Source of the DNA: Parasulfuritortus cantonensis
GTDB lineage: Bacteria > Pseudomonadota > Gammaproteobacteria > Burkholderiales > Thiobacillaceae
DNA length: 64,000 nucleotides
NCBI RefSeq assembly: GCF_004337445.1
Contig: NZ_SJZB01000032.1
Coordinates: forward strand, 1 to 64,000
Reading direction: 5' to 3'
In this document: positions 5,830 through 18,387 of the stretch, in pieces
Position numbering within the stretch: the stretch's first letter is position 1
Layout: each line of letters begins with the position of its first letter
The notes under the pieces: generated by a model
What the model saw: only the letters and a program-made list of their open reading frames with translations
Database searches by the model: none
Told to the model about the DNA's origin: nothing
Program-made: the position numbers and the translations under genes

Positions 5830-7866
5830 CTACTCGGCCATTAAGAGCCCTAACGCAGGAACTGCATGCAGTCCGGCATTAGGTAAATATTTCCTAACCC
5901 AACGTTGCCGCTCCTCCCGGTCGAAAACTTCGGGATCATTCGCGAGTATCGCCAAGGCTTGGGGGAAATACTGTGGAGTGCAACCCCAATACAGCGCATT
6001 CCGCACATTAGTGGCCACAGCGTCCTTGTCACCCAGAAGATTAAGCGCACGCTTCGGATTCCAACGCCACAGATATTCACCAGCGAGACTGCCGAGCAGC
6101 GTTTCCTGCCCGAGGAAAACCTCTACTGCAGAGGCAGCGTGAAATCCGAAACGTTCGAAAAAACTCCGACTCTCTCGACCCCCCATAAAGGGCAGGCAGT
6201 CCTTCACGGACAACAGTAAGTCCGCTCTTACCTCCGGTGGCAGAGATTCCGGCCGATGCGCCAGATAGACGAGGTCGTCTTGGCTCAGCCCACGCAGTAC
6301 TTCTGCAGGCTTCAGGTGTCCAACTAGCCAGAATCGAATACGGGAATGCTCGAACTTGTACAGGGGTGGTTCGTTATCCTCTTCCTTGTTTGGTCTTTCG
6401 GCCACTTCCCGCTCTGCCATAACGAAGCTCGGCCACACGTGCGAAGCGGCATCCTTACCAATCTGCTTGCAGCATTCGAGGAGCAACTTTTCAGCCCAAT
6501 TCTGCCCGATCAATTTCCTCCACCAAGTACTTTGGGCCGGCAAGCCGCCTTTCATTGCCTTGACCAGGAACGGGGCGACCATCATCGCCGGCCATGATTC
6601 ACCGGGACAGTCAATTTCTTTGGTCCACTCAACCAACACCTGCCAATACGCCATCAAGCCAGACGACAATTCCTCGGCCTTCCTATCAGGCATCAACTGC
6701 TCAAGCCAATAGGGCACGTCTGTCGCTCCCTTCACCCAACCCGGAAACAACCAACCAGGAACACCATCAACAGCCGTTTCCGGCAACAGACTCCATGACC
6801 AGCACGCACATAGCCAAGCCAGCTGGTCATCGAAGGTTTCCATTGGGTGGGTCCAAGGCTTGACCAACATCAAATCGTCAGACGTATCGAGGTGCCGGAT
6901 CACCTGACTCGCTACGGAATGTAAGGTGCTCGGAATGTCTTCCTGCTTTGCAATTCGTCTTCCGACTGCAATAAACAGCGCCTCGGCGCCGGCCAAGGAC
7001 TGAGCCGAATCGCCGGACTCGTCTCTTAGACGGTTAGCGGCCTTGATCAGTGAATCCATGGGGACTGCGTCCAGTGCAGCATCGATAAGAGTGCGCCGAG
7101 TCGGGTCGAAACAATTCAGCGCCCAAGTGCTTAATGGATCATTAGCGATTTGGGCCATCAGTTTGTCCCTGACCAGCAAACGAACAAAGGTACGGTTTTG
7201 GTAATCGAACGCCCCTCGCGTAACTTCCTTTAGCAGGCCGCTTTCTAGTAGGGCATGCGGATTGCCGAGCGCCATCAAGACAGCGACGTGATCCGCGATT
7301 TCTTTCCGTTCCCGAACAGTCTTTCCGGCAACGATCTCGTCGAGATTTGTTCGAGAAGCAATAGCTCTCGTTCCCCCCGATATTTCTAGCCATTCCCTAA
7401 GTGATAATGTCCCCGCCCAAGGCAGCTTACTTTGCCACCGCAACCCCGACAGCTCTTCCATCGCGTACAGCTTGGCTACCGGTTCTTTCTCGAATAGCAT
7501 CTGAGCCAAATGGGCGCCAGCTTGTGTATCTGTAGCCTTCGGCAGACGCTTCTCCGAGTGGCGGTGCACAAGGTGGCACAGTTGCAGTAAGTCGGACGTA
7601 GTACAGAACCATAGTTCCGCCGGATCAAAGGATTTCAGCCATTCTCGGACAGCCTCCGCACTAAAGTGGGTATCAACATTGCGGCGGTCTAGGCGATGTT
7701 CAACCCAAGAAAGCAACTGCTCCCGCCAGTCAATGATCTTCTTGAGTTCCCATCGTTTAAGTGGATGTCGTAGTGACCAACGCCTCGCCGTAAGGTCGAA
7801 TTTCCGCCCTTCTTTTCCCCAGGCGGTTCTCGCTTCCCAACTAATCCATTCCGCAGAACTTGTTTC
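5830..7866 (-). pseudogene. C-terminal two-thirds of IS-interrupted large protein
   Basis: Open frame for the C-terminal part of an unknown protein. It runs from the target-site duplication beside the IS (7863-7866) to a stop at 5830 and is about 680 residues long. Removing the IS and one TTTC copy joins it in frame to the segment at 9194-9884, giving a 907-residue product. It is rich in Trp and Leu and looks like a helical repeat region (for example SEAVREWLKSFDPAELWF, RRTLIDAALDAVPM). No catalytic motif is recognised. The first in-frame ATG after the IS is at 7716, so a shorter fragment could still be translated. Lower GC than the flanking core genes points to acquired DNA. Confidence 0.75.
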
Positions 7867-7892
7867 TGAACCGCCCCGGGTTCTGTGGAGGC
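7863..7892. repeat. Left IS end: TTTC target duplication and inverted repeat
   Basis: TTTC at 7863-7866 repeats at 9194-9197. The terminal inverted repeat starts TGAACCGCCCCGGG at 7867 and pairs with the opposite end at 9168-9193. A 3-4 bp duplication is normal for the IS3 family. Confidence 0.93.
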
Positions 7893-7905
7893 TGATTGGT
7901 TTAAG

Positions 7906-9143
<1,238 letters not shown>

Positions 9144-9167
9144 GGCTTCATTCTCTCAAGAGATGAA

Positions 9168-9197
9168 GCCTCCTCAAAACCCGGGGCGGTTCATTTC
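9168..9197. repeat. Right IS end: inverted repeat and TTTC target duplication
   Basis: The last 26 bases of the element match the left end with two differences when read on the minus strand. They are followed by the second TTTC copy. Together the two ends define a clean insertion, with no deletion of target sequence. Confidence 0.93.
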
Positions 9198-9884
9198 CTC
9201 GCGTGGTTCAAACATGAAGGAAGCAATAATCAGGATGCCAGCATCCTCCGGGCGCTCCACCAATGCAGCCAAGTCATCGCCCCCTTCATCCTTCTCCAAC
9301 GCGACGATGATCGGCTTCGAGTTCTTCAGCCGTATTGCTACGGCAGCCAGGGTCTCCGCAACTACAACTTCGTAACGTCCAGACGCCCTTAGTTTCTGCA
9401 CGAGTAGCTGCCGGCTCAAATCGTCTGAAACCTTCAGCCAGTTGAAGCCGATCGGCGGGTGCCTAATCCAGGCGGGGTAAGGCCCCAGCCAATCGTCTAG
9501 GGTCTCCTTGCGAAATCCCTCACTGCCCACGTCCTGAAGTGGATCAAGTTCCTCAACTCCAATCTTCCAACCGTCATCGCGCTTCAAATCAAGCGGTGGC
9601 AGTTCAGGAAACTCCAGAAAGTGGAAGTCACTATTGCCAGCCTTCTCATGCAACCCAAGGTCTTCCAAGGTGATTTCTAGGAGTTCCGCCAGGCACTTCG
9701 CCTTGTCTGGGTTGTTGCGCCACCAAGTCGTGGTGCCTCTGTCCAGTTCACCGAGTTTGTTCCCAAGAGAGCGGTTCTTCATTCCCCACTTGGAGCTAGG
9801 GTAATGGTCAAGTAATGCCTTACCCAGTTCATTGAAAGATTCGTACTCTGAAAATTTCTTGGCATCACGGATTGGCCCCGGCAT
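9194..9884 (-). pseudogene. N-terminal part of IS-interrupted 907-aa protein
   Basis: Starts at the ATG at 9884 (MPGPIRDAKKFSEYESFN) and is open to the insertion point, after ...MFEPREE. Joining position 9194 to 7862, after one copy of TTTC, continues in frame as TSSAEWISWEARTAWGKEG and then into the C-terminal segment. The first about 90 residues look like a small helical DNA- or partner-binding domain (SLGNKLGELDRGTTTWWR). The next part alternates beta strands and helices (EVVVAETLAAVAIRL, KPIIVALEKDEGG, AGILIIASFMF), like a nucleotide-binding fold without a Walker A loop. It is divergent from the peptide-radical SAM operon. A defence or sensing role is possible but not shown. Confidence 0.75.
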
Positions 9885-10098
9885 CGCATTTCTCCAACTT
9901 GACGTGATGTGAACTATAGCGATACCGACCCATGATATGCACGGATATTGCACCAATGCACAGCGGGTGCAGATAATGTGGCGGTGGTGAAACTTCCAAT
10001 CTAGTGTTCTCTTCATCAGGCGCATGAGCGACTGACCTGGCGGGAGCCTCCTCTAGCTAACGCAAAGAATTCATCGAGAGGACATAAGGAGAAGTTCC

Positions 10099-10179
10099 AT
10101 GAGCAACAGCAACCCCAACTGGTCCAGCAAGACCCCCAACCCTTCTGGCAAGGGGCGTGGTAACACCCCCCCGCTTTGA
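10099..10179 (+). CDS. 26-aa peptide, candidate modified-peptide precursor
   Basis: A very short gene with strong translation signals: AAGGAG at 10086-10091, seven bases before the ATG. The product is rich in Asn, Pro, Ser and Gly and includes the motif NPSGKGRGN; it has no hydrophobic segment. It is followed after 78 bases by a B12-binding-type radical SAM enzyme and a coupled P-loop kinase. A tiny Asn/Pro/Gly-rich peptide directly before a radical SAM gene is a classical arrangement for a ribosomally made, post-translationally modified peptide. The end of the gene contains a run of seven C (10166-10172). With one C fewer the peptide would extend by some 20 residues and gain cysteines, so the 3' end should be treated with care. 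Confidence 0.6.
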   Translation: MSNSNPNWSSKTPNPSGKGRGNTPPL

Positions 10180-10257
10180 AGAAATAGGTGCTCGCCGGCA
10201 TCCGCCTGAATGCAGCGGGTGCCAGCTACCAGTCAGATAACCTGGAGGAAAGCCGAA

Positions 10258-11601
10258 ATGAGGCGCCGCTTAGTAATCATTGCCCTTCCATGGATGCGCA
10301 AACACGACGATCTTGCGCCACTCGGGCATGCGTCGTTGGTTGCCGCTCTCAGGCTTTGTACCAACGTGGACGTGCGTCAAGTTATCAACCCTGTCAACCA
10401 CGATGGGTTCTCGCTTGACGGCTTGGTAGCCGGTGTCCTGGCGGAATTGGAGGGTATTCCACAGGAGCATGTTGATATTGGGATTGGGGCTTACGTTTGG
10501 AACGACGAATATGTGAAATATCTGCTGCGTAGCCTGCGCAGCCACGGCTTTCAAGGCCGAATTATCATGGGGGGACCGCAGGTTTCATATGCTGGCGCGG
10601 GGATTGATCACATTTATCCTGAAGCTGATGTGTTTGTCCGTGGCCATGCTGAACTGGCACTGTGTGCGCTTGTTCAAGCCCGTGGACGACCCCGAATCAA
10701 AGGCATCCATTACTCAGGCGAGGATGACTTGTGCGAGCAGGCCGAAACGGACATGGTGAGACTGCCATCGCCGTGGCTGAATGGCACGATTCAGCTCGGC
10801 AAACAGTCTTCCGTGCACTGGGAAACACAGCGAGGATGCAACTTCCATTGCTCGTTTTGCCAGCACCGCCAGCCGAATGCACACACAATTGTCTCAAGGA
10901 TGTCCAACTCGCGTGTCGAAGATGAAATCGATTTGTTTTGCGACGTAGGGGTCAAGCGCATATCAGTACTAGACCCCATCTTCAATAGTGACCCTGTACG
11001 TGCGCCTCACATCTTGCAGCAATTCGCTCAGCGAGGTTTTCAAGGTGAGCTGTCGCTGCAGTGCCGGCTGGAGATGGTTGACGACCGGTTTCTGGAAGCG
11101 GCAAAGACACTCAACGTGAGCTTGGAATTTGGACTGCAATCGATACATAAGCGCGAATACCTCGCGGTCGGTCGTCCGAACAACATGCGAAAGGTCGAGC
11201 AGACATTGCAAAAGGTCAGGCGCGCGAACATCAGGCATGAGGTTTCGCTGATCTATGGGCTCCCTGAGCAGACGCTGGAATCGTTTGAATCCTCAGTGGA
11301 CTGGTGTCTGAGACAACGCATCCCCGTAATCAAGGCCTTTCCATTACTGCTGCTCCGTGGCACTGAATTGGAAGCGAAGCGCGATGACTGGTCATTCATG
11401 ACCATGGAGGGGAGGGTGCCAATTGTAGTGAGTGCAAGGAGTTTCAGCCGCATGGAATGGCAGGAAATGGAGCGCATAGCCAGCGCACTGGCCCAAACAG
11501 AAGGAAACCACCCCGACTGTTTGCGTGCCTTGATGAGCCTGTCCGGACGTGCGGACTATCCCTCGAACGTTTCGCAATTGCGCGCGCTGGGTAAAGCATG
11601 A
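10258..11601 (+). CDS. B12-binding-type radical SAM enzyme
   Basis: 447 residues. The N-terminal about 150 residues have the Rossmann-like layout of cobalamin-binding domains (VDIGIGAYVWNDEYVKYLL, GRIIMGGPQVSYAG, EADVFVRGHAE), although the DxHxxG lower-ligand motif is not evident. The radical SAM cluster motif CNFHCSFC (CX3CX2C) lies near residue 205, followed by a TIM-barrel part (VKRISVLDPIFNSD, VSLEFGLQS, EVSLIYGLPEQT). The ATG at 10258 is chosen because GGAGGAA lies 8 bases upstream; an in-frame start at 10210 lacks this. Such enzymes methylate or rearrange unreactive carbons. Here the substrate may be the upstream peptide or a nucleotide. Its stop overlaps the kinase start. Confidence 0.85.
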   Translation: MRRRLVIIALPWMRKHDDLAPLGHASLVAALRLCTNVDVRQVINPVNHDGFSLDGLVAGVLAELEGIPQEHVDIGIGAYVWNDEYVKYLLRSLRSHGFQGRIIMGGPQVSYAGAGIDHIYPEADVFVRGHAELALCALVQARGRPRIKGIHYSGEDDLCEQAETDMVRLPSPWLNGTIQLGKQSSVHWETQRGCNFHCSFCQHRQPNAHTIVSRMSNSRVEDEIDLFCDVGVKRISVLDPIFNSDPVRAPHILQQFAQRGFQGELSLQCRLEMVDDRFLEAAKTLNVSLEFGLQSIHKREYLAVGRPNNMRKVEQTLQKVRRANIRHEVSLIYGLPEQTLESFESSVDWCLRQRIPVIKAFPLLLLRGTELEAKRDDWSFMTMEGRVPIVVSARSFSRMEWQEMERIASALAQTEGNHPDCLRALMSLSGRADYPSNVSQLRALGKA

Positions 11602-12200
11602 TGAATAGATTGGATGAAAGACCTGTATTCATCGTGTTCGAGGGGCTCGACGGAGCCGGAAAGAGTAGTGCCGCTAAGAGAACGGCCTGTCTACTTGGCG
11701 CGCATTACATGACGACGCCAACCCAAGCAGTCCGCATATACCGCGACGAAATTATTGGCAGTTTGAAGGGCAACCAGGAGGCCGCACAACTGTTCTATCT
11801 GGCGACAGTAATGGCCGCATCCGCCGACGTCCGGGCGCTTCTCGCCTCCGGGCAATCCGTTGTGCTTGATCGATATTTTCTCTCCACTCAGGTCTACGCA
11901 GAATTTCGTGGCTCGACACTCGACGTTGATGATGCGGTAGGAAAGCTCTTGTTACCCGCAGACCTGACGGTGTTCCTCGACGCACCTTGGGCTGTGAGAC
12001 AAGACAGAGTGCTTGGACGGGGATGTTCAGCGGCTGACCGCGAAACGTTGAGTGCCTTTGCCCACTCTCAACTTCTCAGTGGTTATGAAAGGCGCGCCAA
12101 TCATCAAGTTACTGGGAGGTTGGTCCGGATCGACTCATCGATTGCGACAATAGATGAGATCGCCTCGATGGTCGTCGCCCACGCTATGCAGCTTGAATAG
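11598..12200 (+). CDS. Thymidylate-kinase-like P-loop kinase
   Basis: 200 residues with the dTMP kinase pattern: Walker A EGLDGAGKSS at residues 15-24, the DRYFLSTQVYAEF segment equivalent to DRY...S..AYQ, FLDAPWAVRQDR, and a short lid RVLGRG. It overlaps the radical SAM stop (ATGATGA) and is certainly co-expressed. A housekeeping tmk would not usually be tied to a radical SAM gene, so this is probably a specialised paralogue. Viperin-type radical SAM enzymes in prokaryotes are often paired with nucleotide kinases, which offers one analogy. Phosphorylation of a modified peptide or nucleotide is the alternative. The substrate is not known. Confidence 0.82.
   Translation: MMNRLDERPVFIVFEGLDGAGKSSAAKRTACLLGAHYMTTPTQAVRIYRDEIIGSLKGNQEAAQLFYLATVMAASADVRALLASGQSVVLDRYFLSTQVYAEFRGSTLDVDDAVGKLLLPADLTVFLDAPWAVRQDRVLGRGCSAADRETLSAFAHSQLLSGYERRANHQVTGRLVRIDSSIATIDEIASMVVAHAMQLE

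Positions 12201-16422: not shown

Positions 16423-18387
<1,965 letters not shown>

Follow-up and report, generated by a model that had tools for sequence, protein, structure and literature searches.

In the 64-kb stretch of DNA analyzed here (hereafter, the window), a 26-codon gene lies directly in front of a gene for a radical SAM enzyme, which in turn overlaps a gene for a P-loop kinase. The initial annotation read this arrangement as a possibly undescribed system that either modifies the encoded peptide or makes a nucleotide-based defence product. The locus therefore raises the question of whether the enzyme acts on its small neighbor or on a nucleotide, and whether the three genes form a unit at all.

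Organization of the locus

The genes described in the initial annotation were all recovered, and its coordinates were correct. The 26-codon gene (10099–10179, plus strand) encodes MSNSNPNWSSKTPNPSGKGRGNTPPL and is preceded by a strong ribosome site, AAGGAG at 10086–10091. When both strands of the window were scanned, it was the sole ATG-initiated open reading frame of 20–40 codons with AAGGAG at that spacing. The radical SAM gene (10258–11601, plus strand) starts 78 nt further downstream, behind GGAGG at 10244–10248, and its stop codon (11599–11601) overlaps the kinase gene (11598–12200, plus strand), whose ATG lies at 11598, so that the two genes share 11598–11601.

A large, interrupted gene lies divergently beside these genes, as had been noted. 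The interruption is an IS3-family insertion sequence (7867–9193, minus strand) with the target duplication TTTC, which carries orfA (8811–9143), orfB (7906–8754) and an ALIL pseudoknot (8740–8856), all on the minus strand. The 5′ part (9194–10025, minus strand), seen as an open reading frame, is in frame across the insertion with the 3′ part (5830–7866, minus strand), and the two flanks rejoin as one open frame of ~954 codons. Neither the 5′ part nor the rejoined gene had a match or a recognized domain in Pfam, NCBIfam or PADLOC. Elsewhere in the window, a gene for a NifH-like nitrogenase iron protein (16423–17310, minus strand) suggests that the host may be a nitrogen fixer.

The radical SAM enzyme has a predicted cobalamin-enzyme fold

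We examined the radical SAM enzyme by profile searches, alignment and structure prediction. It matched the Pfam Radical_SAM model with 58.5 bits, and the cysteines of its CX3CX2C motif (C194, C198 and C201; 10837–10860) were conserved in all sequences of a 39-sequence alignment. The Pfam B12-binding model gave 23.4 bits, which is below that model's cut-off of 32.1. The best NCBIfam match was the KedN5 family, at 88 bits and thus far under the KedN5 cut-off of 700 bits. In PADLOC, the PDC-M51A model (PDLC04689) matched with 548 bits, aligning residues 2–417 of the enzyme to positions 4–417 of the 420-position profile.

The predicted structure (pLDDT 93.9) was closest to CysS, with a Z score of 33.9 over 413 residues, and also resembled AprD4 (29.2), MgmA (27.7), TsrM (24.6), TokK (24.0) and OxsB (23.2); the matches to cobalamin enzymes spanned 373–418 residues with Z scores of 23–34. 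Viperin, in contrast, matched the SAM domain only (~206 residues, Z ~15). The pVip models of PADLOC gave the enzyme just 12–13 bits, and a search with the PDC-M51A profile yielded no cross-match to viperins. Judged by its fold and cysteines, the protein joins an N-terminal B12-binding-type domain to a CX3CX2C radical SAM domain, as first annotated, and a viperin-type radical SAM domain was not found. In its predicted structure, the enzyme has the fold of cobalamin-dependent enzymes, not of viperin, and on the strength of this fold it may bind and use cobalamin.

This fold accommodates different chemistries. OxsB acts on nucleotides, CysS and TokK methylate pantetheinylated substrates rather than nucleotides, and AprD4 shows that a cobalamin–radical SAM fold need not mean methyl transfer. 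OxsB, CysS and TokK have the two-domain fold in common with the window enzyme over more than 400 residues, but their genomic contexts are unlike that of the window enzyme and OxsB carries an extra N-terminal region.

The kinase is set apart from housekeeping dTMP kinases

The kinase was confirmed to be of the dTMP kinase type, scoring 48.6 bits with the Pfam Thymidylate_kin model (cut-off 27). Its predicted structure (pLDDT 93.8) had dTMP kinases as best PDB matches, and it shares the fold and the P-loop and DRY motifs with bacterial dTMP kinase (Tmk). However, it scored 55.3 bits with TIGR00041, the model for bacterial dTMP kinases, under the cut-off of 83.25 bits. In PADLOC, it matched PDC-M51B (PDLC04690) with 207 bits and, as the second match, VakA, a model filed with viperins in PADLOC-DB, with 57.5 bits. 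A kinase tree separated housekeeping dTMP kinases from PDC-M51B and VakA by a branch with support of 100/99, although the VakA branches were long and the tree included just two viperin-linked kinases.

Kinases adjoining plasmid viperins of Pseudoalteromonas and Nostoc scored as VakA with 188–227 bits. Furthermore, the PDC-M51B profile gave them 69–70 bits, compared with 25 bits for the housekeeping Tmk profile. From their sequences, PDC-M51B kinases appear closer to viperin-associated kinases than to housekeeping dTMP kinases.

As a separate observation, the host assembly contained no dTMP kinase above the TIGR00041 cut-off, only the weak match of PDC-M51B, while all of eight other genomes of the class had one above it. 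As the assembly is 88% complete, the missing housekeeping enzyme is probably a gap.

The enzyme and kinase form a catalogued defence candidate with a scattered distribution

Together, the radical SAM enzyme and the adjoining kinase correspond to PDC-M51A/B, a phage-defence candidate in PADLOC-DB 2.0.0. Both matches cover nearly the whole profile and the gene order is the same, radical SAM enzyme and then kinase; the two models do not include the peptide. No paper naming PDC-M51, and no published mechanism or test, was found in the literature searched, so we treat PDC-M51 as a candidate. The description of the system as undescribed was thus only partly right, since the pair is already catalogued.

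The enzyme proved rare near the host. At E ≤ 1e-40, three of the 369 genomes sampled from the class carried it, and among 300 genomes sampled from the order no other one did. An alignment-query search of 84,980 species genomes returned 45 loci from Euryarchaeota, Poseidoniales, Myxococcota, Planctomycetota, Bacteroidota, Ignavibacteriota, Fibrobacterota and Pseudomonadota, most relatives being 31–51% identical to the window protein; single-sequence scans of genomes and viral contigs had returned no loci. A tblastn search against plasmids and phages also gave no match. Eighty viral loci taken up as possible relatives were rejected as generic radical SAM enzymes with 21–28% identity.

In the tree of the enzyme, phyla were mixed, and the window protein adjoined marine archaeal ones with support of 81/80. 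To account for the kinase, the tree requires some nine gains or losses. Among 46 loci checked, the kinase lay downstream in 17 and upstream in one; 24 had none in the DNA examined, which suggests that the kinase is either not needed or provided in trans, and in the remaining four the DNA ended too soon. On these sequences, the distribution has the pattern of a horizontally spread unit from which the kinase can be absent. Defence genes also occur beside PDC-M51, namely an AbiLi/AbiLii-like gene (L037) and a gene for a HEC-06/Orf5-like DUF262-type protein (L055).

Two further neighborhoods were observed. In marine archaea (L013, 191–4308; L019, 312–4601), PDC-M51A without a kinase comes after two genes, a large CHAT-protease-like one (weak match to SAVED_CHAT) and a conserved one of ~206–210 aa. 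In gamma- and alphaproteobacteria, an unnamed family of ~230 aa lies upstream of PDC-M51 (L012, 5323–6030; L037, L042, L043 and L049).

PDC-M51 shares partners with viperin loci

A HicA-like gene adjoined PDC-M51 in four loci (L038, L039, L045 and L021). It was directly upstream of the radical SAM gene in three Pseudomonas loci (PADLOC HicA-like model, 75 bits in L038), and in Massilia it lay at the stop codon of the kinase gene. The possibility that the L021 match was an alternative frame of the kinase gene was rejected, as a separate gene starts at the kinase stop. A HicA-like gene (67.7 bits) likewise overlaps the viperin gene in Sulfitobacter. Small RelE/ParE/DUF4258-like genes adjoined ten more PDC-M51 loci (ParE-like in L012, L027, L043, L049 and L051; DUF4258 in L028, L029, L034, L046 and L047). 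In the window, the HicA-like, ParE-like and DUF4258 profiles had no match between 5000 and 13500.

Based on the kinship of the kinases and the HicA-like gene, PDC-M51 has partners in common with viperin loci, but its radical SAM enzyme is a different one. Kinase-linked prokaryotic viperins (pVip with VakA) likewise pair a radical SAM enzyme with a member of this kinase subfamily, and some of their loci add a HicA-like gene. The PDC-M51 enzyme, in contrast, carries a cobalamin-binding-type domain at its N terminus and, at 13 bits with pVip, is no viperin.

A related arrangement was seen on an Acinetobacter plasmid (L200, 3992–5496), where a PDC-M51B/VakA-type kinase (84 bits) overlaps a weakly viperin-like radical SAM gene (43 bits) beside AAA ATPase and PIN genes. 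This pair could possibly represent a third radical SAM–kinase defence type.

Proposed function of PDC-M51

Because PDC-M51 shares these partners, we lean towards the view, by analogy, that it works like a kinase-linked viperin locus and makes a modified nucleotide. The cobalamin-dependent radical SAM enzyme would alter a nucleotide or nucleoside, whether by methylating, dehydrating or rearranging it. The dTMP-kinase-like partner would then phosphorylate the product or supply the substrate, and the triphosphate form would poison phage nucleic-acid synthesis. What the sequences and models show is the identity of the genes, their folds, their overlap in an operon, a broad horizontal spread, the kinship of the kinase to viperin-associated kinases and the shared HicA-like neighbor; the substrate, the product, the antiviral effect and the use of cobalamin are inferred. 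Several points weigh against this model: 24 of the 46 loci show no such kinase; the B12-binding match is below its cut-off, which leaves cobalamin binding to be judged from the fold; CysS, the closest fold, and TokK methylate pantetheinylated substrates; the window locus has no HicA/RelE-like gene; and the VakA branches are long in a tree with two viperin-linked kinases. The earlier suggestion of a nucleotide-based defence is thus supported indirectly by the PDC-M51 match, the kinship to viperin-associated kinases and the HicA-like neighbor, but its comparison with viperin does not extend to the radical SAM enzyme itself.

The small toxin-like genes could also be read differently. The enzyme might modify RNA (e.g. 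tRNA) or protein, with the HicA/RelE/ParE-like genes as toxic effectors in an abortive-infection or toxin–antitoxin-like system and the kinase as an accessory. RelE-, ParE-, DUF4258- or HicA-like genes occur at 14 of the 46 loci, the kinase is often missing, and the RNA- and protein-modifying reading gains further from MiaB and RimO, which are also structural neighbors of the enzyme model (Z ~21). However, the profiles found no such small gene at the window locus, no conserved domain for binding RNA or protein was observed, and the kinase, a relative of those linked to viperins, turns up repeatedly across the tree. We regard this alternative as unlikely.

A nucleotide product need not be aimed at phages. 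PDC-M51 could instead be a pathway resembling those of the nucleoside antibiotics oxetanocin, albucidin and 4′-thiothymidine, directed against competing microbes. Among the structural neighbors, OxsB is the cobalamin radical SAM enzyme of oxetanocin biosynthesis. The albucidin and 4′-thiothymidine clusters also include radical SAM enzymes (PMC7074753, PMC12691670). Against this, genes for an exporter or for other biosynthetic steps do not recur around PDC-M51 loci, which are compact two-gene units, horizontally scattered and found beside defence genes. An antibiotic role is accordingly still less probable than RNA or protein modification.

The mini-protein belongs to a separate family

We then asked whether the peptide gene belongs to PDC-M51. 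Within 1.5 kb of the radical SAM gene, an N/G-rich mini-ORF was found directly upstream in only 2 of 47 loci, the window and G566 (L012), with three of the 47 loci ending within 400 bases upstream. The upstream ORF of G566 encodes MSKKIKPKDNATNQKNANKGTDGTNRQYDQAQGNRGK, whose motif is unlike that of the window peptide. A precursor peptide conserved beside its maturase was therefore not seen, and the homologous radical SAM loci do not bear out the co-conservation of peptide, enzyme and kinase.

The window peptide nevertheless has many relatives elsewhere. Its DNA pattern had 34 exact matches in viral contigs (L149–L182), and in one of these (L158) the peptide gene sits between gp32-like and recA-like genes. 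Members elsewhere (L141, L191, L192, L193, L195 and L196) include ones within type I R-M operons in G711 and G681, one beside an E2–E1 fusion and a JAB protease in G127, and one beside a TIR protein gene on a Vibrio plasmid. A second match in the host genome (C6:92758) was rejected because it does not share the reading frame of the Fic-like gene that contains it.

Across 32 distinct coding sequences, the core P-S-x-T-G-N-P-S-G-G-G-R-G-N-x-P was kept while third codon positions varied freely; Ser was encoded by both TCN and AGY, and Arg by six codons. Positions left free by the search pattern were also kept, with P in 30, S in 31 and G in 29 of the 32. As the peptide core is kept while the codons vary, selection acts on the protein, which upholds the expectation that the peptide region is conserved. 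The sequences thus point to a conserved, real mini-protein of a separate, widespread family, (W/Y)PSxTGNPSGGGRGNxP. Pfam, NCBIfam and PHROGs had no family for the peptides searched, and the motif was not found as text in the literature searched. A tblastn search of the consensus against plasmids and phages gave no match, probably owing to the low-complexity filter.

Being small, directly upstream and equipped with a strong ribosome site, the 26 codons could act as a regulatory leader whose translation controls expression of the radical SAM and kinase genes. We consider this very unlikely, since conservation across unrelated contexts is seen at the amino-acid and not the nucleotide level, most family members do not precede radical SAM genes, and the gap had no Rfam match. 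Least credible of all is a RiPP-like pathway in which an active product arises when the enzyme modifies the 26-residue Asn/Gly/Pro-rich peptide: despite the short distance and strong ribosome site, and the small N/G-rich ORF at the second PDC-M51 locus, 45 of 47 loci (a few of them cut off upstream) lack such a peptide, the two upstream peptides are of different kinds, family members turn up in phages and in type I R-M and E1–E2/JAB loci that lack the enzymes, and we know of no role for a nucleotide kinase in RiPP pathways. With this, the peptide-modification half of the original proposal fails. The best reading is that the peptide gene encodes an independent passenger mini-protein, not the substrate of the enzyme. 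Our impression, from a handful of loci, is that the family recurs near defence genes.

Taken as a whole, the locus may hold two things, an overall picture to which we give slightly less than an even chance. The first would be a second class of antiviral-nucleotide synthase, in which a B12 radical SAM enzyme takes the place of viperin beside a VakA-type kinase and a HicA-like partner and makes an analogue unlike ddh-nucleotides. The second would be the separate, unnamed PSxTGNPSGGGRGNxP family, recurring in phages and several unrelated defence loci. As far as this analysis shows, two things are new: the viperin-like interpretation built on a cobalamin enzyme, and the mini-protein family as an independent entity. 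If the nucleotide proposal is true, a catalogue entry without an explanation gains concrete, testable chemistry, and prokaryotes have evolved antiviral nucleotide analogues at least twice, with different radical SAM enzymes and related kinases. Cobalamin would gain a role in immunity, and the product could prove to be a novel chain terminator. The mini-protein family is small, strongly conserved and present in phages and defence loci, and its function is easy to test.

Two minor observations concern other small proteins. In four genomes, a homologous 110-aa protein is encoded divergently from the peptide (L191, 5339–5770; L192, 4294–4662; L193, 5134–5469; L194, 5153–5992), and in three of the four a gene for a zinc-ribbon membrane protein is convergent to it; the divergent gene of the window had no detectable relationship to the 110-aa protein. 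A second mini-protein motif, GTxGxNxQxxxAQGNRGKQLNPN, was found in G566 (L012, 6600–6713), in phages and in a Klebsiella integron (besides L012, the loci with the motif are L140, L143, L144, L147, L148, L197 and L198). It can form a stand-alone peptide or, in Vibrio, a linker inside larger proteins, and on a Treponema plasmid it lies upstream of a viperin operon.
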